DNA of 33,439 nucleotides from Bacillota bacterium (GTDB lineage: Bacteria; Bacillota; Limnochordia; Limnochordales; Geochordaceae): NCBI GenBank assembly GCA_040754675.1, contig JBFMCJ010000003.1, forward strand, positions 1 through 33,439. The letters are read 5' to 3'. The notes under the pieces are model-generated. The model saw only the letters and a list, made by a program, of their open reading frames with translations. It ran no database searches and had not been told where the DNA came from. Positions 1 to 33,439 of this stretch are shown here, one piece after another (positions within the stretch are counted from its first letter, which is position 1; every line of letters begins with the position of its first letter). The position numbers were made by a program, and so were the translations under genes.

Positions 1-954
1 CAGGTGAAATGCGAGGTGCTGGGCAGCGGTGGTGTCGGGTGTCCCTGCATACAGCGGCAGGAAGGCTGCCGAGGTGGGTACCCGGATCGGGCTGCCGGCG
101 ATGGCGTCGAGGGAGAAGTAGAGGCCTTCACCGTCGTCCCACAGCCGCCCAAAGGCCTGGGTGCCTTGACGAATCCATCCGTCCAATTCCTCGGTGGGCT
201 TGCCGAGCTCGATGGCAAGCGCCCGGAGGTCCTGGTTGGCCTGGTGGAGCAGGGCGTTGAACCCGACGTCGACGACCCGAAAGGGTGATTCGAAGTAGAG
301 GCGGCTCGGGTCGTATCGAAGGTCCCTGAAGCGAACGACCAGCGAAAGGTATCGCCGGTATTCGTCGTCGGAGGGCCGCTCTGAGGAATGGACGTGGGAA
401 GTGTCCTTCCTACGGGCAGGGAGTTCGGCGGGAAGGACCCGCCCCAGCGGCTCGTCCCAGGCCGCACTGTTGTCCATCCCGGATTCCCACGGGTGCAGGA
501 TGCTGACCAGACCCGTGCCTTCAGGGTCCCGAGCCCGGTACAGCCAGCGGTGGTAAGCCATGAGCTTTGGAAACAGTTCCTCGGCTGCGTTCCTGGCGAG
601 TTCGCGGTCACGAGCCTGCCGGTAGAGAATCAACGTGGCCGTAGCAAGGACGGGGGGCTGCGTGATGCCAGACGTAGGGGGCACAGTGTGGGTTTGCCAC
701 ACATCCGGACCCGGGAAGTAATTGGGGTCCGGCCGGTGGAAGACGATGTGCGGAAGAAAGCCGTCGGGCCACTGCCCCTTGAACGCCGAGAAAAGCTCCT
801 GCCACGCACGCCCCTCCGATACCTGGCCCCAGCCCAGGGCGATGAACCCCGCATCCCACAGCCACTGATACGGATACAGGTCCGCCGAGGGAACGGTGAA
901 GTCTCCGCGGCCGTTGGCCTTGAGGGTCTCGATGGCTTCCTCCACGAGGTTCAC
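1..954 (-). CDS. GH63 / mannosylglycerate-hydrolase-like (MGH1-like) glycosidase, 3' end outside window
   Basis: The frame is open from a GTG at 954 to the window edge (318 codons seen, C-terminus missing). The GTG overlaps the stop of the upstream ABC ATPase gene as GTGA, so the two are translationally coupled. Seen: LYPYQWLWDAGF near residues 26-37, FLPHIVFHRPDPNYFPGPDVW near 66-86, TSGITQPP near 94-101 and HPWESGMDNSAAWD near 154-167. This string of motifs is typical of the (alpha/alpha)6-barrel GH63 enzymes that cleave mannosylglycerate or glucosylglycerate; the Asp in the HPWESGMDN motif (about residue 161) is the likely catalytic acid by family analogy. There is no signal peptide, so it should act in the cytoplasm on sugar imported by the preceding transporter. 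The exact substrate is inference; another alpha-glycoside (for example a trehalase-like substrate) is possible. Confidence 0.82.
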   Translation of the reverse strand, partial: MNLVEEAIETLKANGRGDFTVPSADLYPYQWLWDAGFIALGWGQVSEGRAWQELFSAFKGQWPDGFLPHIVFHRPDPNYFPGPDVWQTHTVPPTSGITQPPVLATATLILYRQARDRELARNAAEELFPKLMAYHRWLYRARDPEGTGLVSILHPWESGMDNSAAWDEPLGRVLPAELPARRKDTSHVHSSERPSDDEYRRYLSLVVRFRDLRYDPSRLYFESPFRVVDVGFNALLHQANQDLRALAIELGKPTEELDGWIRQGTQAFGRLWDDGEGLYFSLDAIAGSPIRVPTSAAFLPLYAGTPDTTAAQHLAFHL

Positions 955-2036
955 GCTTCGCCACCCTGTTGAGAAAGGCTTTGCCCCGTCTTCGGGTCCA
1001 TCCAGCGCACCCGTGCCGGGTCGAGCCGGGCCCAGACGATGTCGCCCGGCGCGATGGCCAGGCCTTCCGGCACGGTGACCTTGAGCCTCTGGCCGTTCCA
1101 CTTAAGGGTGAGGAGAAGATGGGATCCGAGCGGCTCCACGACGAGCACGCTGGATTCCAGCGCGTCCGGAGCGGGCGCTGTCTCGACCTTCATATCCTCC
1201 GGCCGTATACCGAGAAGCACTTGATCGCGGGGAAAGCTTCCGGCGACTGGAAGCCGCAGGTGCCCGACGTCGGCAAAGGTTTTTCCATCCCGCCTGACCA
1301 CGCTCACCTGAAGGAAGTTCATCGGGGGGCTGCCGATGAATCCGCCGACGAAGGTGTTGACGGGTTCCCGGTAGACCTTCAGCGGGCTGTCGTACTGGAC
1401 AATGCGCCCGGCCTGCATCACCGCAATCCTGTCCGCAAGGCTCATGGCTTCTACCTGATCGTGGGTCACGTAGAGCGTGGTCGTCCGGAGCTCCTGCAGG
1501 AGGCGCTTCAACTCCGCTCGCATCTCCAACCGCAAGAGCGCATCGAGGTTGGAGAGCGGCTCGTCCATCAGCAGCACCTCTGGCTCCACGGCCAGGGCCC
1601 GCGCCATGGCCACGCGCTGGCGCTGGCCGCCCGAAAGTTGCCCGGGGTAGCGGCTCAGGAGTTCGTGGATATGCATCAGGGCGGCGACGCGCTCCACCTT
1701 TTGCTTGATCTCCGCCATCGGGCGTCTGCGCATGCGCAAGCCGAAGGCAATGTTCTCGAAGACGTTCATGTGCGGGAAGATGGCGTAGTTTTGAAAGACC
1801 ATCGCGATACCTCGATGCCGTGGGGCGAGCCGGGTGACGTCCCGCTCACCGATGCGGACCCGTCCGGCGTCCGGCGTTTCAAGCCCTGCGATAATCCGAA
1901 GGAGGGTGGTCTTACCGCATCCGGAAGGGCCCAGAAGCACGACGAACTCCCGGTCGCGCACTTCCAGATGCACGCCGTCGAGAGCCCGGACGCGCCCGAA
2001 GCTCTTGCCCACGGCATCAACTCGGATCCCGGCCAT
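951..2036 (-). CDS. Sugar ABC importer ATPase, MalK/UgpC/MsmX type
   Basis: A 361-residue protein with all ABC motifs: Walker A GPSGCGKTT at 36-44, Q-loop glutamine near 82, signature LSGGQ at 134-138, Walker B VLLMDE at 154-159 and the H-loop histidine in YVTHDQ near 192. The roughly 120 residues after the nucleotide-binding domain form the TOBE/OB-fold region usual for MalK- and UgpC-type ATPases, and total length is normal for the family. The ATG at 2036 has a GGGAGG site seven bases upstream. It lies 12 bp after the second permease gene and overlaps the glycosidase gene by 4 bp. It powers the importer formed by the next two permeases and the substrate-binding protein. ATPases of this class are often shared between several sugar importers. 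Confidence 0.95.
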   Translation of the reverse strand: MAGIRVDAVGKSFGRVRALDGVHLEVRDREFVVLLGPSGCGKTTLLRIIAGLETPDAGRVRIGERDVTRLAPRHRGIAMVFQNYAIFPHMNVFENIAFGLRMRRRPMAEIKQKVERVAALMHIHELLSRYPGQLSGGQRQRVAMARALAVEPEVLLMDEPLSNLDALLRLEMRAELKRLLQELRTTTLYVTHDQVEAMSLADRIAVMQAGRIVQYDSPLKVYREPVNTFVGGFIGSPPMNFLQVSVVRRDGKTFADVGHLRLPVAGSFPRDQVLLGIRPEDMKVETAPAPDALESSVLVVEPLGSHLLLTLKWNGQRLKVTVPEGLAIAPGDIVWARLDPARVRWMDPKTGQSLSQQGGEA

Positions 2037-2048
2037 CGGTCGACCTCC

Positions 2049-2849
2049 CTAGCGGCTGGCGATACCCCACAGGGTGAAGAGGTATCGCCGGACGGCAAAC
2101 ATGAAGACAAGCGCTGGCAAGATCAGAAGGAACCCCCCGGTGAAGCGGAAGGGCAGCGGAGCATCACCCAGCACGGCCAGCAGGAATGCGGGCAGGGTAC
2201 GTTCTCGGAGCGTGAGGATACTGGCCGCAAATACCTCGTTCCACGAGGTGACGAAGGCAAAGATACCCGTTGCTGCCAGTCCGGGAAGGGCCAGGGGCAT
2301 GACGATTCTCCCGAAAGCCTGTAGCCGGCTGCAGCCCAACGTCCAGGCCGCCTCTTCGAGTTCCCGGGGAATGCCGACGAAGAGGCTCGCGCTGACCAGA
2401 ACGGCAAAAGGCAGGGCCAGGGCGGTGTGTACGAGCGCCACGGCAAGGGGGGTATCATACATCCCGAGCCGTATGAAGCGCACGGCCAGCGGAATCGACA
2501 GGATCACGATGGGAAAGGCACGCGTCAGCAGGATGGCGAGCCGGTACGCGTTCTGCCCGGTGAATCGGTACCGAGCCAGGGCATACCCGGCCGGGGCGCC
2601 CAGCAGCAGCGAAAGCAGCACGGTGATGCCCGCCACGACCAGGCTCTTGCGCGTCGCTTTCCAGACGCCTTCGACGGAGAAGAAAAAGCGCACGGTGTCC
2701 GCCGAGAACTCGCCGGGCCAGAAGTTCTTGGGCCACGCGTACACCGACTGGCGCACCGACACCGAAGGGACGGCGATCAGGTAGATGGGCAGGAGCACCC
2801 ACGCGCTCAGGAGCACCACGGCCAGCACGAGGCCGACGCGCCGGATCAT
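2049..2849 (-). CDS. Sugar ABC importer permease, MalG type
   Basis: About 266 residues and strongly hydrophobic, with roughly six membrane segments; the first begins at residue 5. The cytoplasmic EAA loop that docks on the ATPase is visible as EEAAWTLGCSRLQAFGRI, followed by MPLALPG. The chosen ATG at 2849 overlaps the stop of the upstream permease as ATGA and has GAGGTG eight bases upstream. A GTG or ATG further upstream would only add a hydrophilic tail lying inside the neighbouring gene, so it was rejected. Together with the next gene it forms the membrane channel of a carbohydrate-uptake (CUT1-like) ABC system. Confidence 0.93.
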   Translation of the reverse strand: MIRRVGLVLAVVLLSAWVLLPIYLIAVPSVSVRQSVYAWPKNFWPGEFSADTVRFFFSVEGVWKATRKSLVVAGITVLLSLLLGAPAGYALARYRFTGQNAYRLAILLTRAFPIVILSIPLAVRFIRLGMYDTPLAVALVHTALALPFAVLVSASLFVGIPRELEEAAWTLGCSRLQAFGRIVMPLALPGLAATGIFAFVTSWNEVFAASILTLRERTLPAFLLAVLGDAPLPFRFTGGFLLILPALVFMFAVRRYLFTLWGIASR

Positions 2850-3700
2850 GATGTCGTCACCTCTGGCTTGACTTGAACGAGCCGCAGGTACATCCACGTT
2901 GCGGCCAGCGAGAGGCCGAGAATGAGAACGGCGTAGGCGGCTGCCACCCCCGGCACCTGGTAAGCTGCGTACCAGTTGTAGGCCTCACCGGCGAGCACGG
3001 GCAAGTTGCGGCCGGTCAGCGTCAGCACGACCGCGAAGACTTCGAAGGCCAACACCGTTCGCAGGATGAGAGCGGTCTGGAGGCTTGGCTTCAATAGCGG
3101 AAGCGTCACCCGCCTGAACCGCTGCCAGGCCGTTGCGCCGAAAACCTCGGCAGCCTCCGCATACTCCTTTGGGATGAGCTGCAGCCCGGCGACGAGGATC
3201 ACGAGGACAATGGCGGTCGCGCGCCACACCTCGGCGACGGCCACGGAGACGAACAGCCCCAGGGGATTCTCGTAGCTGAGCCACAGACGTGGGGTGTCGA
3301 TGAGCCCGAGGGCGTGCAACAGACTGTTGAGATAGCCCCGTTCCGTGAAGATGCTGAGCCAGACGATGCCGGCGGCCAGGTCTGAGATACCCAGGGGAAT
3401 CGACCATATGTAAAGGAGAACGTCCCGGCCCTGGCGGACTCCTCCCAGGAGAAGCGCCATCGCCAGGGCCAGGACGACCTGGATGGGCACCACGACGGCA
3501 GTGAGAAGCAGGGTGTTACGGGCGGCATCACCGAAGTAGAGGTCGGATGCCATGCGTCGGAAGTTTTCCAGCGACCACCCCGCCTCTCCCGCCCGCAGAG
3601 CGAGCCAGAAAGCCTCTGCAAGTGGCATTGCGAAGAAAAACGCCAGGAATACGATGCTCGGCAACAAGAGCAGGTAGGGAAGGTATCGCTCGCTCCGCAT
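2846..3700 (-). CDS. Sugar ABC importer permease, MalF/UgpA type
   Basis: A 284-residue membrane protein with about six transmembrane segments; the first covers residues 7-27, following the short basic start MRSERY. The EAA motif EYAEAAEVFGATAWQRFRRV followed by TLPLLKPS is clear. It starts 48 bp after the substrate-binding-protein stop at 3749, and its own stop overlaps the next permease. The nearest Shine-Dalgarno-like stretch (GGGAGGGAAG) sits unusually far, about 15 bases, from the ATG, so expression may depend partly on coupling. It should heterodimerise with the MalG-type permease. Confidence 0.93.
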   Translation of the reverse strand: MRSERYLPYLLLLPSIVFLAFFFAMPLAEAFWLALRAGEAGWSLENFRRMASDLYFGDAARNTLLLTAVVVPIQVVLALAMALLLGGVRQGRDVLLYIWSIPLGISDLAAGIVWLSIFTERGYLNSLLHALGLIDTPRLWLSYENPLGLFVSVAVAEVWRATAIVLVILVAGLQLIPKEYAEAAEVFGATAWQRFRRVTLPLLKPSLQTALILRTVLAFEVFAVVLTLTGRNLPVLAGEAYNWYAAYQVPGVAAAYAVLILGLSLAATWMYLRLVQVKPEVTTS

Positions 3701-3748
3701 GGTGCTGCCATCTTCCCTCCCGGGATGCCCTTTACTACCTTACAGACC

Positions 3749-5047
3749 TTACAGAACCGGGCAGGCTCCCGTGCTGGGCTCATCCGGGGGCCAGCAAGGG
3801 GCTTTGGCTTCCGCCATGATCCGCCGCATCTTCTCGGCCTGCTGGTCAAGAACTCGCCGCACGTCTTCGCGGCGCAGCACAATCCGCGCAAACGTGTCCA
3901 CGAAGACGCGGTTGAACTCGCCGTCGCGGACCCCCAGTCCCACGGGCAGCAGGCTGGGAACGGCATTGGGTGACGCCGACTGCTTGGCGACGGCCTCTGC
4001 GGCCAGCTTGACGCCGGCGGGCAGATCGGCGGGCATGGCTACCTGGATGACCGGGAAAAACCCGCCGATCTCCCGAAGGATGGCCAGCTGCACATCGGGG
4101 CGCGTCAGGTACTCGATGACCGACGCTGCTCCTTCGGGGTTCGGGGCGCTCTTGACGATGCCAAGCCCGGTCAAGACGGGCATGAACCCGCGCCCTTTGG
4201 GGCCGATAGGGGCAGGGAAGGCGACGAAGTCCTGCGGGCGTTCGCGCAGTGCGTTGATCAGGCGCGCCGTGTGGTCCCAGGCCACCCACACCTCTCCGGC
4301 CAGGAGCGGTTCCTGCATGAACTCGTAGCTGGTGGACTGTGGGTTGACGTAAGCCCAGAGTTCGGTGAACTCCTTCCACATAGCCTCGGCTTCCTGGCTT
4401 CGAAAGTGCGTTACGGTGCTCTTCACGTAGGACGGGTACAGGTAGCCCTGGAAGAACCGGTGCATGAGCCCTTTAGGCCCTGCAGGAAAGCCAAGGAGCC
4501 GGCGGCCCGTTGCCTTCAGCAGGTTCTCGCCCCAAGCCTTCAACTGACCATATGTGAGGGAATCGAGGTTGGCTCCCGGCGGCAGGTACTTGAGGGCCTC
4601 GCGGCTGGCGACCATGATGTAGGTCGCCTGCATCCAGGGAATGTACTGCTGGTAAGGGGTTCCCAGCTTGCCAAGCTCAACGTAGGCGGGGACGAACCCG
4701 CGGTCTGCAAGCCTGGACAGCACGTCGTCAGCGGGCTGCAGCGCGCCGGCGTTGACCAGTGCGGGGAAGTCGCCGTGCACGCCTCCGACCAAGCTGATCA
4801 TCACCCTGCCGGCACGGGTCTCAGCCAGAACCCGGTCAGCAAAGGGAACCGGTTCCACGGGAATGAACTCCACGTGTCCGGGGTAGCCGGCGAGGATCGA
4901 CTGCCGCATCTTCTCGGCTTCTTCGATGGGCCGAAGCTGGGTGGAGAGGAACAGCACCGAAGACTGCGAGGCGCTGGCCGGTGGCACCGCGGTCACAAGC
5001 ATCACGAGCATCACGCTGGCCAAAGCCACTATCCATCCTTGACGCAT
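3749..5047 (-). CDS. Extracellular sugar-binding protein of ABC importer (family 1 SBP)
   Basis: A 432-residue protein from the ATG at 5047, which has AAAGGAGGAG four bases upstream; the frame extends 13 codons further but without such a site. Residues 1-27 form a classical signal peptide (MRQGWIVALASVML...) ending in ASAS-like small residues. No lipobox cysteine is present, so the mature protein should be soluble and secreted or periplasmic, not a lipoprotein. The body has features of SBP_bac_1 proteins: a long alternating alpha/beta body, VAWDHTARLINALRERP near the ligand-cleft region, and an AASVIEYLTRPDVQ segment typical of the C-terminal lobe. It sits between lacI and the permease genes. 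The sugar is unknown; the neighbouring glycosidase suggests a small glycoside. Confidence 0.9.
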   Translation of the reverse strand: MRQGWIVALASVMLVMLVTAVPPASASQSSVLFLSTQLRPIEEAEKMRQSILAGYPGHVEFIPVEPVPFADRVLAETRAGRVMISLVGGVHGDFPALVNAGALQPADDVLSRLADRGFVPAYVELGKLGTPYQQYIPWMQATYIMVASREALKYLPPGANLDSLTYGQLKAWGENLLKATGRRLLGFPAGPKGLMHRFFQGYLYPSYVKSTVTHFRSQEAEAMWKEFTELWAYVNPQSTSYEFMQEPLLAGEVWVAWDHTARLINALRERPQDFVAFPAPIGPKGRGFMPVLTGLGIVKSAPNPEGAASVIEYLTRPDVQLAILREIGGFFPVIQVAMPADLPAGVKLAAEAVAKQSASPNAVPSLLPVGLGVRDGEFNRVFVDTFARIVLRREDVRRVLDQQAEKMRRIMAEAKAPCWPPDEPSTGACPVL

Positions 5048-5086
5048 GAGGCTCCTCCTTTCGAACGTCACGCCGGGACCCGCCAC

Positions 5087-6130
5087 TTACCGGTCGGGCC
5101 TTGCACTGTCTGTCCTGCCTCCCGGAGGCCCCGCCGAACCGCGCAGGACGAGTTCAGGGAGCCACACTTCCTGCAGCTTCTCTGCCGCAACGCCGGACAT
5201 GTAGGAGACGAGCATCTTCACCAGCCGCCTTCCCGCCTGGCGGATAGGCTGCCGGAGGGTGGTGAGAGGAGGATCGGTGAACCGTGCCATTGGAATATCG
5301 TCGTAGCCGATGACGGAGATGTCCCGGCCCGCCCGCAGCCCTTGCTCGCGCAGCAGGTGCATGGCGCCGATGGCCATGAGGTCGTTTGCACAGAGAACGG
5401 CGGTGGGAGGGTCAGGCGCCCCCAGGAGGCGGTGCATCGCTCGATACCCCCCTTCCTCTGTCAGGTCTCCCTGAACGAGGAGCCTCTCCTCCTGCGGCAA
5501 ACCGGCCTCTATCAGCGCTTTTCGGTAGCCTTCGAACCGGTGATGGCTGAAGTTGAGCTCCTGCGGAGCGTTGATGATCCCGATGCGGCGGTGCCCCAGT
5601 GCCAGCAGGTGGCGCGCCGCCACGTAAAAGCCGTGCGTGCCGTCGACGTCCACGTAGGGAAACGGGTGCTGGACGTCGCTGCTGCGCCCGTGCGCGACAA
5701 ACGGCACGCCTCGCTCGGCAAGGTAGAGAATGCGTTCATCCTGTCGGCGGGTGCGTGCAAGAACCACGGCGTCGACCCGCCGGCCCTCCACCAGCCGGCG
5801 GTAGCAGCGCAACTCTTCCGGCCCTGGGGCGCAAGCCGTGACGAGCAGGTCCAGCCCGTGCTGGCTGAGCCCTTCACCGAGGCCAGCCGCGAGTTCGAGA
5901 AAGAACGGGTCGGCGAATTCGCCCGGCGGTGCGGGGATGACAAGCCCGACCGCCTCCGTTCGGCCCTTGCGCAGGCGTTGCCCAAGGGGGTTGGGCTGAT
6001 AGCCGAGTCGGCGGGCCGCTTCGAGGACACGCTGCCGTGTCTGCTCGCTCACGTCGCCGTAACCGTTGAGTGCACGGGAGACGGTGGTGATGGACAAATC
6101 CAGCGCCCTGGCAAGCTCCTTTATTGTCAC
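5087..6130 (-). CDS. LacI-family transcriptional regulator
   Basis: A 347-residue protein. The helix-turn-helix occupies the first 25 residues (MTIKELARALDLSITTVSRA), followed by the hinge region QPNPLGQRLRKGRTEAVGLV and a periplasmic-binding-like sugar-sensing domain. The start chosen is the GTG at 6130: GGAGG lies five bases upstream and LacI proteins normally begin two to four residues before the TIKELA-type helix. An in-frame TTG at 6142 falls inside the ribosome-binding site and is less likely. It is the first gene of the operon, 39 bp before the substrate-binding-protein gene. A perfect palindrome at 6139-6152 over its own translation start suggests it represses the whole operon, including itself, until a sugar is present. 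Confidence 0.94.
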   Translation of the reverse strand: MTIKELARALDLSITTVSRALNGYGDVSEQTRQRVLEAARRLGYQPNPLGQRLRKGRTEAVGLVIPAPPGEFADPFFLELAAGLGEGLSQHGLDLLVTACAPGPEELRCYRRLVEGRRVDAVVLARTRRQDERILYLAERGVPFVAHGRSSDVQHPFPYVDVDGTHGFYVAARHLLALGHRRIGIINAPQELNFSHHRFEGYRKALIEAGLPQEERLLVQGDLTEEGGYRAMHRLLGAPDPPTAVLCANDLMAIGAMHLLREQGLRAGRDISVIGYDDIPMARFTDPPLTTLRQPIRQAGRRLVKMLVSYMSGVAAEKLQEVWLPELVLRGSAGPPGGRTDSARPDR

Positions 6131-6138
6131 GGCGGCCT

Positions 6139-6152
6139 CCAAAACGTTTTGG
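6139..6152. promoter_or_regulatory. Probable LacI-family operator (perfect 14-bp palindrome)
   Basis: CCAAAACGTTTTGG is a perfect palindrome with the central CG typical of LacI/GalR-family operators. It lies downstream of the predicted promoter and overlaps the lacI ribosome-binding site, so bound repressor would block elongation or transcription start. The binding protein is inferred to be the adjacent LacI regulator. Confidence 0.7.
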
Positions 6153-6166
6153 CTCCCGCCGGCTCT

Positions 6167-6196
6167 ATGCTAACGTCGCCCACGGAGGTCAGTCAA
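6167..6196 (-). promoter_or_regulatory. Sigma-A-like promoter for the lacI-sugar importer operon
   Basis: On the minus strand TTGACT (plus 6191-6196) is followed after 18 bp by TAGCAT (plus 6167-6172), pointing into the lacI gene. The -35 box matches five of six consensus bases and the -10 box four of six. The palindromic operator lies just downstream. Confidence 0.6.
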
Positions 6197-27995: not shown

Positions 27996-28304
27996 CCGAC
28001 CTGGCGGGCCGGGCTGGTGGTCTGCTGCTCGGCGGGAAGCGACGGGCCGGAGCCGATGACCATCTCAACGCCGGGGATTCATCCAGCCGCGATAACCGCT
28101 GGCGCGGCCGATGACCACCGGGCGGTCGACCGTTCGGATGATACGGTGGCGCCCTTCTCCAGCCGGGGGCCGACGCCTGATGGGGTGACAAAACCGGACG
28201 TGGTGCTGCCGGGAGTCAAGATCACGTCGCTGCTTGCGCCGCTCTCCCTGCTGGCCAGGCAGCAGGAGCAGCGGCCACGAGATAAACGGCACCCTCTCAC
28301 CAGA
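27996..28304 (+). pseudogene. Remnant of a subtilisin-like (S8) serine protease
   Basis: Just after the exporter stop the plus strand encodes, in one frame, WRAGLVVCCSAGSDGPEP, then TISTPGIHPAAITAGAADD and the family hallmark VAPFSSRGPTPDGVTKPDVV followed by LPGVKITSLLA. These are the oxyanion-hole and calcium/substrate segments of the S8 catalytic domain, in correct order and spacing. The piece stops before the GTSMA catalytic-serine motif, and the Asp and His parts upstream are absent. The oxyanion Asn of the AGN motif reads Ser. The fragment (about 90 residues) is bounded by the exporter permease on the left and the vapC gene on the right, so it is a truncated relic. Confidence 0.75.
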
Positions 28305-28683
28305 TGACCTGGACCGGGTAGCGGGCGAACTGCGAGTCAGCACTCAAGATCGGGATGCCTTCTACCAGCGCCTGTGCGACCAGCATGCGGTCGAACGGAT
28401 CACGATGGTAGTCGGGTAAGCCGAAAACCTTGAGGGCGTGGCTCAGCTGTACAGGCAGCACCTCAAACGCGTTGCGGTGCACCTGCTCGGTGATGAAGCC
28501 TTCGAGGTCCGCCGGGAATTGCACCCGTCCGAGCCCTGCTTTGATGGCGATTTCCCAGGCGCTGGCCGTGCTGAAGAGGATCTCGTTCTGTCCGTCGCCG
28601 ATGACCTCCCGGACGCGTTGCGATAGGTTCGGGTCATCCGTCACCCACCAGAGGAAAGCGTGTGTGTCCAGCAATGCTCTCAT
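28297..28683 (-). CDS. vapC: VapC-type PIN-domain ribonuclease toxin
   Basis: A 128-residue PIN-domain protein with the four acidic residues of the family: D6 in LLDTHAFLWW, E44 in SAWEIAIKAG, D98 in HRDPFDRMLVAQA and D116 in ILSADSQF. The motif pattern and length match the toxin subgroup usually paired with Phd/YefM antitoxins. It would cut RNA (often initiator tRNA or rRNA) when the antitoxin is lost. The ATG overlaps the antitoxin stop as ATGA. It lies tail to tail with the plus-strand protease remnant. Confidence 0.92.
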   Translation of the reverse strand: MRALLDTHAFLWWVTDDPNLSQRVREVIGDGQNEILFSTASAWEIAIKAGLGRVQFPADLEGFITEQVHRNAFEVLPVQLSHALKVFGLPDYHRDPFDRMLVAQALVEGIPILSADSQFARYPVQVIW

Positions 28684-28922
28684 TGTTCGAAGCCCCGCTG
28701 GACTCCGTCTGGTAGCGGAGCATCGAAGTCGGCACTTACCCGTATGAGCCCTCTGGCGCTGCCCGGAACACGGCGCGCCACTTCCTCCCGGACCGGGATG
28801 AGTCGCGCTATGGGTCTCCCCGCCTTCGCGATGACAACGTCCTCGCCCTGACGCACCCGCTCCAGCAGCCGCGACAGGTGGGTTTTCGCCTGATGCACGT
28901 TAACCGTTATGGACACAGCCAT
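28680..28922 (-). CDS. Phd/YefM-type antitoxin
   Basis: An 80-residue protein beginning with NVHQAKTHLSRLLERVRQGE and IAKAGRPIARLIPV, the classical Phd/YefM DNA-binding N-terminal fold. The C-terminal tail (about residues 50-80, acidic and Pro-rich) should wrap and neutralise the toxin. The ATG at 28922 is preceded by GGGGAG. It is the first gene of the pair and overlaps vapC. It probably represses its own promoter at 28940-28968, with VapC as corepressor. Confidence 0.9.
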   Translation of the reverse strand: MAVSITVNVHQAKTHLSRLLERVRQGEDVVIAKAGRPIARLIPVREEVARRVPGSARGLIRVSADFDAPLPDGVQRGFEQ

Positions 28923-29117: not shown

Positions 29118-32100
29118 TCACGGTTTGGCAGAAGACACCCACACGGTCTGGCCCACCACGATCCGGCGGGCGTCGACTATCTGAGGATTGAGGCGCAACA
29201 GTTCCTCCACCGTGACGCCGTGCGCCCGGGCGATGGAGAAGAAGGTATCGCCTCGCTGCACCGTGTAGGGCTGAACTGCGTAAGGCCTGTTGTAGGGAAC
29301 AGGCACCCGGATAGCCTGGCCGCTGACGATACGATCGGGGTCGGTGATCTGGGGGTTCATCCGCAACAGCCCGGCCAGCCTTATGCCACGGGCGCGAGCG
29401 ATGGAGAAGAGGGTATCCCCCCGCTGGATGGTGTAGGACTCGGCGGCCAACCCCGGGATACGCACCTTCTGCCCGGCACCGATGCGGCCGTCGGTGAGTC
29501 TGGGATTGCTCCTGAGAAGGGCTTCAACGGGCATGGCGAAATCCCAGGCGATTTGAGAGGGCGTATCCCCCGCTCTCGCGTAGATGACCAGCTCCGGTGA
29601 GGCGGCTGGTGCGTTGGTCGCCGCCTTCGGCGCCTCGGTGATGGTCTCCTTTTCCACAGAGGGCACCCAAACGGTCTGGCCCACCACGATCCGGCGGGCG
29701 TCCGCTATCTGAGGATTGAGGCGCAACAGTTCCTCCGTTGTGACGCCGTACGTCCGGGCGATGGAGAAGAGAGTGTCGGCCCGCTGTACCGTGTAGGGCC
29801 GAATGTCGTAAGGTCTGCCCCGGGGAACGGGGACCCAGATGGCCTGCCCGCTGGCGATGCGATCGGGGTCGGTGATCTGGGGGTTCATCCGCAACAGCCC
29901 GGCCAGCCGTATGCCATGGGCGCGAGCGATCGAGAAGAGGGTGTCCTGCCGCTGGATGACGTAGGGCTCGGCCGCCAATCCCGGGATGCGCACTTCCTGC
30001 CCGGCACCGATGCGGTGAGCGTCGGCGAGCCCGGGGTTGCTCCCGAGGATAGCTTCGAGGGGCATTGCGAAATCCCAGGCGATTTGAGAGGGCGTGTCTC
30101 CGGGCCACGCGTAAATGACGAGTTCGCGGGAAACGGTCACCCGGGCGGCCCGCGCCACCGGCGTTTCGGCAGGTGTCTCTCCTTCCGGAGGGTGTTCGAT
30201 GGCGGCAGGCCCCTCTTCGGCGGGCAACAACACGCGTTCTTCGGTGGGGGGCCGTTCCTCGACGAGATGGCGTTCTTCAACCAGGGGGCGTTCTTCGATC
30301 GCGGGCTGCTCCTGGATCGGCAAGCCCTCCTCCAACGCCAGGCTGACGCCAGTGGCGGGTTGAGCCACCTCTGCGACCATGCGCACTTCCTCAACCGGAG
30401 ACCCGTCCGCAGGGACGTGGACCGGTTGTGGGGGGACTGGCTTCAACCCCAGCCTGGCGACCTGGCTGGGTGCGATTCGCACCTCGTAGTCCCCCGGCCG
30501 CACGTCCTCGAAGAGGAAGAAACCGTCAAAGGCGGATTTCGTCCGCGTGACCACCTCGCCCTGGGGGTTGACGAGTTCAAGCTCCATGCCGCTCACCTGC
30601 CTCGCCCCGTCGCTATGAAGCAGGTAGGCCGTACCGCTCACCTCGCCTGCAACGATGACCGGGTAATCGAGGGCCAGGGTGGCGCCGGGGCGCGGTATGA
30701 TGCCGAATCCCTGTACCGCAGGACGCCACATCGGGTCCTCAAGGGTAGCAGGAGAAAGTTCGACGATGTTGACGTGATAGGGGGTCAGGCCGGTAAGCAT
30801 GGCAACGCCTTTTTCGTCGGTCCTCGCCGGGTGCACGCTCCCGTTGACGAGAAAGGCGACACCCTCGATCGGCACCTCACCCGGGTCCATCACGCCGTTC
30901 TCGTTGGCGTCCACGAAGGCCCGGGCGGAGACGGCTCCCATGTGTGCCGTGCCCGAAGGGGCGGCGCGCCATTCTCCGGAGTGCCCCTCGCGGCCGAGAG
31001 CCGTGGACAGGCTCAGGCGGAGCCCCACTTCCCCACTCGTCCTGTACTCCGCACCGATGCCTGCCGCATAGGTTCCGGCATTTCGGACCAGATCGACCGC
31101 GTACCGGGACCGGTTCGTATCTATGGAGCGGTCCATCTGTAACTGGAAGGTATAGCCGCCGGCCAGGGAGCCGTTGACGCTAATCGAGACCTGGCGCACC
31201 TGCGCGAGAGGCTCGAGATCGTAGCGCAGGTCCGCACGAGCGGTGTAGCGTCCGAGGTGACGGGCCATCAAGAGCGTTCCTTGAGCAGAGACCTCGGCGC
31301 GGCGCACGCTGGCGTCGAGCCAGTTGGTCAGCGAAAGCCCGTTGTAAGAAGACGAGACGCGGCCGGAGAGGTGCGTGAGAGCCTCTCCCGAGCGAAGCCG
31401 ATCCTGCTGAACTTCCCAACTGAGAGCCAGGCCGGGGGAAGCCGGGAAAGGAAGCGTCGAGTCAAGGGTCCAGCGGGTTTGACTCTCGATGGGATCAGCA
31501 CCGGCCGGAAACTTTTCGCTGGAGAAGCCCCAAAGGCGCACGTGCTCCAGGGAAGTCCCCACCCTCCCCCACCGCGTGTGCAAGGCGAGCCGGCCCGCCG
31601 AACCGCCGCCCTCGGCCAAAGCCACGTCGGCTTGGGTCAGCATCTCCCCGCTCCAGCCCCTGAGACTCAGGGTGGCATAACCGTCCTCGCCGAAATCCCC
31701 AAGGGTACGGGAGAGCGCGAGGCCGGCAGAAAGATGCCGCCCCACTCCCTCGTCGTACTGGAAAAAGACACGCTCCTTTCCGTCCTCACTCTCGCCTACC
31801 GTAACCCGGTAGTAGCTGTCGCCTGGCGGAACGAGGGAGTCCCGCACGTGCCAGCGCCGAACTTCCTCGCGGATCTGGCCCTGCGGCCCGTAGAAGATCA
31901 GCCGGAACTCGTTCTGGCCGTACCGGAGCGGCACGTTTTCGAAGCGATACCTCGCATCCGGCCCTGGCTGCTGGAAGTCCAGCAGCAGATCATCCCGGTA
32001 GAGCTCGACGGCCCACCCCGGGGGGAGGGCCCCCTCGAGCTGGATCCGATCGAATTCCTCGGGCTGTCTCAGGAGGTAACTGCTGACATGCACGCCCCGT

Positions 32101-32987
32101 ACGACTTTTGGGGACGAGACGAGCGGCAGGCCCGGGTAGATGACGTGGCCCAGCGAAAACTCGCGCGCTTTCAGCGGGCCGAGCAGCGTCGCTTCGGGCT
32201 GTTTGCGCCCCAACGTGAACCGCAGAGCGGACAGAGGGTCGCTCTCGTTTCCGGAGAGAAAGACAGCTCCTGTCATCTGCAACAATTCGCCCGTGGCGAA
32301 GACGGTGTATTGCGCGTGCGTCTGCTGCTCTCCCTGCACGTCACGGCGCAGGCTGAGCCTCAGGCTTGGATCGACGAACGGCCCGGCCAGGAGGCGGTAC
32401 GGCTTTTGGAGATGAGGATAGGGGGCCTCCGGGAAGGGTTGACCGGATCGCAGTTCTCTCCAGCGGCTCTCACGCTCCAGACGTAGCTCCACGGGTAAGG
32501 GCTCACGGGGTTTGACGCGCAGTACGGAGACCGGGAAGTCCACCTCGAGTTCCATTGGAAGCCACTGAGAAAGCAGGCTGGCGTCGACGTAAATATCGTC
32601 GGCATCGATGCGCACGCGCGCCGAATCGAAGGAGGTGCGGTCGCGCCCGACGCTCACCATGCCGCGCGCGGCATCGAGGAGAAAACGCCGGGCATCGCGG
32701 CCCACGAGCCCTTCTGCCCTGCCCTGTTCGGGGAGAACCGTCAGGCCGAGCTCGAGCAGGCGGCTGAGCTGGCCCAGGGATATCAGCACGCCTCCGGCAA
32801 CCCGGTAAGCGGGAAGGAGGTCGCCGTCAAGGCTCAGGCGCCCTACCTGTACCTCGAGCAGGAGCAGCTCGGCCTGCGGGTCCTGGGTAAACGCCTCAGG
32901 AGCGTCCGCGGCCGCGCCAGCCGGCAGGATAGCGCTCGCCGCCACAACTGCCGCGAGGACCAGCGACCAGAACCGATACGTACGCAT
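29118..32987 (-). CDS. Fimbrial-usher-like outer-membrane protein with six C-terminal LysM domains
   Basis: A 1289-residue protein. Residues 1-27 form a signal peptide (MRTYRFWSLVLAAVVAASAI...) without lipobox. Residues about 40-170 match the N-terminal periplasmic part of TcfC/FimD-type ushers (VDASLLSQWLPMELEVDFP then LRVKPREPLPVELRLERE). About 195-680 is a long run of alternating beta-strands (RWTLDSTLPFPASPGLALSW, YTARADLRYDLEPLAQ), the presumed barrel with plug. About 688-775 is an SdrD/EF-loop-like domain (FVDANENGVMDPGEVPIEGV) and 778-870 a carboxypeptidase-regulatory-like domain (TKSAFDGFFLFEDVRPGDYE). A Glu/Pro-rich linker (885-945) leads to six LysM domains (about 956-1003, 1008-1053, 1064-1109, 1133-1178, 1184-1230, 1240-1285). 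The chaperone gene ends 28 bp upstream. The usher would sit in an outer membrane and export pilus subunits; LysM should bind peptidoglycan. Confidence 0.82.
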   Translation of the reverse strand: MRTYRFWSLVLAAVVAASAILPAGAAADAPEAFTQDPQAELLLLEVQVGRLSLDGDLLPAYRVAGGVLISLGQLSRLLELGLTVLPEQGRAEGLVGRDARRFLLDAARGMVSVGRDRTSFDSARVRIDADDIYVDASLLSQWLPMELEVDFPVSVLRVKPREPLPVELRLERESRWRELRSGQPFPEAPYPHLQKPYRLLAGPFVDPSLRLSLRRDVQGEQQTHAQYTVFATGELLQMTGAVFLSGNESDPLSALRFTLGRKQPEATLLGPLKAREFSLGHVIYPGLPLVSSPKVVRGVHVSSYLLRQPEEFDRIQLEGALPPGWAVELYRDDLLLDFQQPGPDARYRFENVPLRYGQNEFRLIFYGPQGQIREEVRRWHVRDSLVPPGDSYYRVTVGESEDGKERVFFQYDEGVGRHLSAGLALSRTLGDFGEDGYATLSLRGWSGEMLTQADVALAEGGGSAGRLALHTRWGRVGTSLEHVRLWGFSSEKFPAGADPIESQTRWTLDSTLPFPASPGLALSWEVQQDRLRSGEALTHLSGRVSSSYNGLSLTNWLDASVRRAEVSAQGTLLMARHLGRYTARADLRYDLEPLAQVRQVSISVNGSLAGGYTFQLQMDRSIDTNRSRYAVDLVRNAGTYAAGIGAEYRTSGEVGLRLSLSTALGREGHSGEWRAAPSGTAHMGAVSARAFVDANENGVMDPGEVPIEGVAFLVNGSVHPARTDEKGVAMLTGLTPYHVNIVELSPATLEDPMWRPAVQGFGIIPRPGATLALDYPVIVAGEVSGTAYLLHSDGARQVSGMELELVNPQGEVVTRTKSAFDGFFLFEDVRPGDYEVRIAPSQVARLGLKPVPPQPVHVPADGSPVEEVRMVAEVAQPATGVSLALEEGLPIQEQPAIEERPLVEERHLVEERPPTEERVLLPAEEGPAAIEHPPEGETPAETPVARAARVTVSRELVIYAWPGDTPSQIAWDFAMPLEAILGSNPGLADAHRIGAGQEVRIPGLAAEPYVIQRQDTLFSIARAHGIRLAGLLRMNPQITDPDRIASGQAIWVPVPRGRPYDIRPYTVQRADTLFSIARTYGVTTEELLRLNPQIADARRIVVGQTVWVPSVEKETITEAPKAATNAPAASPELVIYARAGDTPSQIAWDFAMPVEALLRSNPRLTDGRIGAGQKVRIPGLAAESYTIQRGDTLFSIARARGIRLAGLLRMNPQITDPDRIVSGQAIRVPVPYNRPYAVQPYTVQRGDTFFSIARAHGVTVEELLRLNPQIVDARRIVVGQTVWVSSAKP
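29130..30130. repeat. Tandem duplication of a three-LysM block within the usher-like gene
   Basis: Two blocks of about 475-500 bp (roughly 29130-29605 and 29658-30130), with a period of 528 bp, are very similar; long stretches such as the one following GATCGGGGTCGGTGATCTGG are identical. Each encodes three different LysM types in the same order (PSQIAWDF type, LFSIARAHGIRLAGLL type, TVEELLRLNPQI type). A 3-bp indel changes HRIG to GRIG between copies. This is an in-frame segmental duplication, not a CRISPR or mobile element. Confidence 0.85.
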
Positions 32988-33015
32988 GCACGGAAGAACG
33001 GTCGGGACGCCTCGG

Positions 33016-33439
33016 TCATAGCACCCCCACTTCGACCTGGGCCAGAATCCTGTTCCCCGAGTCTTCTCCGTTGCGATAAGTCACCCGCAGGCGAGCCCCA
33101 CGGGAGAGCGAGCCTGGAGGCACCTGTACCGGTACCTCGAGGCGCCGATAGGCGTTGGGGGTGTACACCGCGATGCCGTTGACGCTGCCGATGATCTGTT
33201 CACGCCCGTCGGCGGTAACGAGGCTCACCGTCACATCGCCGTATACCGAACGGCTGCCGGTCCGACCGATGCGCAGGGACAGTGCCCGGGGCGTACGCGT
33301 GGCCGGATCCATCTCCCATTGAAGGTCGGACAGCGACACGCGGGCCGTCGTCTGGCCGTGACGGACAATGACGGGAATGGTAACGCCGAACACCGCTGTA
33401 AGGCGGATGCTTACCTCGCTCGGCTCGGCCGCGCCGGCC
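33016..33439 (-). CDS. Periplasmic pilus-assembly chaperone (PapD/COG3121-like), N-terminus outside window
   Basis: The frame stays open to the right window edge; a GTG at 33393 is internal, because the codons before it continue a beta-strand reading as EVSIRLTAVFGVTIPVIVRHG. About 141 codons are seen, ending in TGA at 33016. The pattern VFGVTIPVIVRHG, then SLRIGRTGSRSVYGDVTVSL and GIAVYTPNAYRRLEVPVQVP is that of the C-terminal immunoglobulin-like domain and preceding strand of fimbrial chaperones that occur beside TcfC-like ushers. It lies 28 bp upstream of the usher gene on the same strand. The chaperone would hold pilin subunits in the periplasm and hand them to the usher. Pilin genes, if any, lie beyond the edge. 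Confidence 0.72.
   Translation of the reverse strand, partial: AGAAEPSEVSIRLTAVFGVTIPVIVRHGQTTARVSLSDLQWEMDPATRTPRALSLRIGRTGSRSVYGDVTVSLVTADGREQIIGSVNGIAVYTPNAYRRLEVPVQVPPGSLSRGARLRVTYRNGEDSGNRILAQVEVGVL

Follow-up and report, generated by a model that had tools for sequence, protein, structure and literature searches.

A probable chaperone-usher operon with a LysM-tailed usher in a Bacillota genome carrying outer membrane genes

The stretch of DNA analysed here (hereafter the window) is a contig of 33,439 nt from a Limnochordia genome assembly, at one end of which two genes lie on the reverse strand (Table 1). The larger is a single open frame of 1289 codons, the product of which begins with MRTYRFWSLVLAAVVAASAILPAGAAADA; the smaller ends 28 bp before the start of this gene, at position 33016, and runs off the contig at 33439. 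An earlier note on this DNA had described the large protein as one chain with a signal peptide, two Ig/CNA-like domains and six LysM domains, and had placed a PapD-like chaperone 28 bp upstream; all of these features were recovered from reading of the open frame, Pfam and the structural model, the chaperone gene being cut by the contig end. The 'usher-type N-terminal region' described in the same note holds by position only, as no PapC_N match was found and some relatives instead match AMIN or Cu_amine_oxidN1. Directly 3' of the large gene, a PIN-domain toxin is paired with a Phd/YefM antitoxin (28297-28922).

Table 1. Features of the usher-LysM locus, in window coordinates
Feature	Position	Strand	Basis
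Usher-LysM fusion gene, 1289 aa	29118..32987	-	Single open frame; usher by profile-profile comparison and fold; six LysM by Pfam
Signal peptide, residues 1-28	32904..32987	-	Read from sequence; signal helix in AlphaFold model
N-terminal domain, residues 40-160, at the position of the usher chaperone-binding domain; PapC_N match absent	32508..32870	-	Model
Barrel strands 1-6, residues 200-302	32082..32390	-	Model
Plug-like domain (sandwich), residues 314-380	31848..32048	-	Model; aligns with E. coli usher plug
Barrel strands 7-24, residues 391-663	30999..31817	-	Model
First C-terminal Ig-like domain, residues 684-779	30651..30938	-	Model; SdrD_B; FimD alignment
Second C-terminal Ig-like domain, residues 781-870	30378..30647	-	Model; SdrD_B and CarboxypepD_reg
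Glu/Pro-rich linker, residues 871-965	30093..30377	-	Read from sequence
Six LysM modules, residues 966-1289, a three-module block twice	29121..30092	-	Pfam; direct repeats
PapD-like chaperone, C-terminal 140 residues, truncated by contig end	33016..33438	-	35-42% identity to the corresponding region of annotated chaperones

Outside the LysM tail, Pfam identified two stretches of SdrD_B in the large protein. The Usher profile (PF00577) aligned with residues 600-751 at 14-15 bits, under the Pfam cut-off of 27.1; the Pfam scan found neither PapC_N nor PapC_C in this protein, and searching Pfam and PDB sequences with the protein alone, or PDB sequences with a profile, returned no significant usher match. 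By profile-profile comparison with hhalign, an alignment of 18 relatives (A8) matched an alignment of the six E. coli K-12 ushers (A6) at 95.4% (E = 1.9e-8) over 429 collinear columns that start in the plug, continue along the barrel and end in the first C-terminal domain, whilst controls made by reversing A6 or by shuffling its columns or blocks reached 2.3% at most. Hence the profile check proposed in the earlier note divides, the family profiles falling short and the profile-profile match standing. Narrower inputs scored weakly, at 13.7% for alignment A4 and 1.5% for FimD alone, so the usher result needs diverse relatives; even in these weak comparisons, the FimD segment RTDWRGYAVL...LDTNTLAD...VPTRGA aligned with residues 719-776.

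Ushers form a barrel of 24 strands in which a plug is inserted between strands 6 and 7. Residues 1-871 were modelled with AlphaFold (mean pLDDT 73.5, pTM 0.47); the model has six strands, a plug-like sandwich, 18 strands and two Ig-like domains, and thus agrees with the 24-strand barrel for which the earlier note had proposed to look, the strand counts being those of a moderate-confidence model. When this model was compared with the PDB using Foldseek, FimD and PapC structures filled ranks 1-18, with a best E value of 3.1e-25 and structural-alignment identities of 10-14%; the TM-scores of these matches were modest (0.29-0.55), as expected because the model is itself a moderate one. Judged by sequence profiles and predicted fold, the window protein is a genuine but distant usher.

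Searched for DUF4402, the host genome (G000) yielded two unambiguous genes close to the end of another contig, C162, where the gene order is L,D-transpeptidase, DUF4402, DUF4402, chaperone. This contig runs out within a PapD-like chaperone gene, of which it contains the N-terminal half (C162:7764-8186), the half that is missing from the window. The end of C162 and that of the window contig (C3) have four bases in common and would be in frame if joined, and we infer that the two make up one operon, composed of two DUF4402 subunit genes, a chaperone and the usher. The PapD_N profile scored 20 bits against the N-terminal half of the host chaperone, under its cut-off of 23, which two of the three full-length chaperones of relatives that were scanned passed. 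As with the usher, alignments were compared by hhalign: the chaperone alignment matched the six E. coli chaperones at 90.8%, with controls at 0.2% or less. The equivalent of Arg8 is invariant; that of Lys112 is an invariant proline, and hence the Arg8-Lys112 pair of classical PapD and FimC is incomplete. Both members of the chaperone-usher pair proposed in the earlier note therefore find backing in controlled profile comparisons, and the usher also in its model and the Foldseek matches. The L,D-transpeptidase upstream of the subunit genes (L027, 4916-5959 of C162) has YkuD and PG_binding_1 domains; it may or may not be linked to the system.

The DUF4402 proteins of these operons share features at their C termini: among 43 operon subunits, the penultimate residue is aromatic in 39, a glycine lies 14 positions from the end in 37, and positions 4, 6 and 8 from the end are hydrophobic in 40. 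The -14 glycine and a penultimate tyrosine are present in FimA, FimI, FimF, FimG and FimH in the same table, and both host subunits carry the motif, which, with its alternating hydrophobic residues, we take to be the beta-zipper of pilins. Hence the pilin-like subunits that the earlier note had expected beside the system do occur, on C162 rather than in the window. One DUF4402 subunit modelled alone had no significant match in the PDB; as such a model lacks the donor strand, the subunit in it would be incomplete. No mention of DUF4402 was found in a literature search that reached few subscription journals, and the present association suggests a function for this family.

Operons encoding a DUF4402 protein, a 'molecular chaperone' and a 'carboxypeptidase regulatory-like protein' are found on plasmids of Polaromonas, Sphingopyxis, Novosphingobium and Pseudoalteromonas, the usher of Polaromonas E5S being 34% identical to that of the window over 98% of the query. 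Their three gene families, and the order of these, are those of the host; they differ in that their ushers have no LysM tail, Pseudoalteromonas Bsw20308 having SPOR instead. A scan of genome contigs detected 16 more ushers, in Burkholderiales, Holophagaceae and one gammaproteobacterial assembly, with a chaperone just upstream wherever flanking sequence was available and, in most cases, DUF4402 genes too. Within the sampled Pseudomonadota (the phylum of Glaciimonas, G413), the operon was present in 13 of 399 genomes. Within the phylum of the window, the host genome has it, and so does a Halanaerobiales-like class, which looks like Halanaerobiia and also looks diderm; across the 73 genomes of the window's class, the full-length form occurs in the host alone, and a genome of the same genus does not have it. 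The pilin-chaperone-usher operon is therefore distributed over Burkholderiales, Sphingomonadales, Gammaproteobacteria, Holophagaceae (Acidobacteriota) and the Halanaerobiales-like class. The earlier note had suggested a system not yet described in this lineage; we found no description of chaperone-usher pili in diderm Firmicutes in the literature, although the operon itself is not confined to the lineage.

The six LysM stretches of the window usher are all above the Pfam cut-off (total E 2e-67), and together with the linker they extend the protein by around 420 residues past the second C-terminal domain, such that a wall-binding domain and an outer membrane barrel share one chain. The DNA encoding them contains direct repeats spaced 528-531 nt apart, which suggests that the three-module block was duplicated fairly recently, as the repeated stretches are 87% and 79% identical. 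All 16 relatives from the contig scan stop shortly after the second C-terminal domain, without a wall-binding tail. A survey for the usher-LysM architecture, as the earlier note had proposed, hence turned up LysM-free relatives, common in Burkholderiales and present elsewhere, whilst the LysM tail was seen only in the window usher among the relatives examined. However, four relatives (L099, L100, L101 and L022) have a SPOR domain above the Pfam cut-off after the same C-terminal domain, and three more (L021, L097 and L098) have similar-looking tails that Pfam did not detect. In a tree of 33 ushers, those bearing SPOR form one group (support 100/99) apart from the window usher, which falls beside the Halanaerobiales-like ushers with moderate support (87/87). 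The sequences thus point to convergence, with LysM and SPOR tails added at the same end of the usher, and the presence of two unrelated wall-binding folds at one end of a single family suggests selection for wall binding there.

AMIN domains bind peptidoglycan, and AMIN matches were found in four of 16 aligned relatives; several Burkholderiales ushers (L031-L035 and L038) also have around 150 extra N-terminal residues. Such N-terminal extensions are possibly yet another means of attachment to the wall.

Bacillota is a phylum of mostly single-membraned bacteria. In the host genome, the gene for BamA is followed by that for LpxD, and the gene for LpxC by that for LpxA (BamA and LpxC assigned by family, LpxD and LpxA by eye), and with these genes present an LPS-containing outer membrane is expected. 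The gene content thereby supports the earlier note in its proposal of a diderm host, and cultivated Limnochordia have been seen by electron microscopy to have an outer membrane (PMC11456536).

Taken together, these data make it probable that the locus belongs to an operon for a non-classical chaperone-usher pilus, or other surface fibre, of which it forms the assembly end, in a diderm member of the Bacillota, with an usher anchored to the wall. DUF4402 subunits would enter the periplasm, where the PapD-like chaperone would cap them by donor-strand complementation, and would then polymerise through the plug-gated 24-strand pore of the usher. The usher and chaperone homology, the barrel and plug topology, the pilin motif, the LysM domains and the outer membrane genes behind this scheme come from computation, whereas donor-strand complementation and exchange, plug-gated export and the periplasmic location of the usher C-terminal domains are carried over from what is established for the pathway. 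The six LysM domains, extending those periplasmic domains, may reach and bind peptidoglycan, and would thereby anchor the pore to the wall, and the fibre base with it; such anchoring is predicted from usher topology, with its periplasmic C terminus, and from the SPOR tails of some relatives, the reach, the binding and the mechanical role being our own extrapolation. There is perhaps an even chance that the wider family constitutes an undescribed chaperone-usher branch, with DUF4402 subunits and SdrD_B-type ushers, in diderm Bacillota, Pseudomonadota and Acidobacteriota, in which ushers have gained a C-terminal peptidoglycan anchor at least twice (LysM here, SPOR in Pseudomonadota), fixing the pilus base to the wall.

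The tail could instead serve a working chaperone-usher system as a localisation device, directing it to particular glycan sites such as the septum, the poles or the forespore without bearing load. SPOR domains, as carried by the relatives, are known for septal localisation, and the window LysM domains match the profile of the spore coat protein SafA; however, six modules in a duplicated block would imply avidity and firm binding, and we consider this alternative rather unlikely. Another reading is that the fusion acts mainly as a tether for the outer membrane, secretion being secondary or lost, since diderm Firmicutes do employ a barrel joined to a wall-binding domain for this purpose (PMC10628300). 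The chaperone and two subunit genes that accompany the usher, its retention of plug and barrel, and the occurrence of the same operon in LysM-free relatives all render this improbable. OmpM, the protein so used, resembles the window usher in combining an outer membrane barrel and a wall-binding domain in one chain, yet it is a trimeric porin with an N-terminal SLH domain and not a secretion usher.

The last alternative, that the operon is foreign or that the usher and LysM sequences were misjoined, might be raised given an assembly of 795 contigs with 3.77% contamination, the presence of Burkholderiales among many of the closest usher relatives and synteny with the same-genus genome (G001) that is limited to the initial 6.2 kb of the window (no synteny being found for the remaining 27 kb in the regions compared), but it is very hard to sustain when the transporter-like block at positions 1-6170 is syntenic at 53-74% protein identity and 71% DNA identity over 2.4 kb, GC content is even (0.657 for the usher, 0.666 for the rest of the window and 0.669 for C162), the usher shares no more than 37% identity with its proteobacterial counterparts and groups with those of the Halanaerobiales-like class, and usher and LysM occupy one uninterrupted frame. 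By these sequence measures the contig is apparently part of the host genome; contamination of the contig was judged unlikely on the even GC, the same-genus synteny at its start and the position of the usher in the tree.

The wall-anchored chaperone-usher system favoured here resembles type 1 pili (FimA-FimI-FimC-FimD) and P pili in its subunit-chaperone-usher gene order, in the barrel, plug and first C-terminal domain of the usher, in its PapD-like chaperone and in the C-terminal motif of its subunits. It differs from them in the low structural identity, the sub-cut-off Pfam scores, the lack of PapC_N and of a conserved Lys112, and the possession of SdrD_B-like C-terminal domains, DUF4402 subunits and a LysM tail. 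Hence fold, operon and subunit motif indicate that the system is a member of the chaperone-usher superfamily, even though it fails the classical usher Pfam profiles and one chaperone hallmark. To our knowledge, classical ushers have no wall anchor. In YeeJ, an inverse autotransporter of E. coli, the LysM domain precedes the barrel. This protein is like the window usher in being an outer membrane protein, in its case an adhesin, with a peptidoglycan-binding LysM domain (PMC5595812), and unlike it in being a type Ve autotransporter without chaperone or subunits.

The diderm Bacillota are lineages used in arguing that the ancestor of the phylum had an outer membrane, and the present system would extend chaperone-usher pili to them. 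The chaperone-usher pathway was omitted from a survey of diderm secretion systems (PMC4793230). How the outer membrane pore of a pilus withstands pulling forces is seldom asked, and the question would become testable with an usher that itself carries a wall-binding tail and with relatives in which another such domain occupies the same end.

More divergent pairs of a chaperone and a barrel/SdrD_B usher-like protein were observed in other genomes of the window's class and order and in the Halanaerobiales-like class (L102, 2485-6298; L103, 2268-7899; L104, 3-7497; L105, 2636-5689; L106, 79-6356), with no chaperone seen beside L105. Compared directly with the E. coli ushers by hhalign, these usher-like proteins scored 1.3%; the pairs matched A8 at 99.9%, partly through the SdrD_B domains, and the chaperone alignment at 99.5%, and some are accompanied by small secreted proteins.
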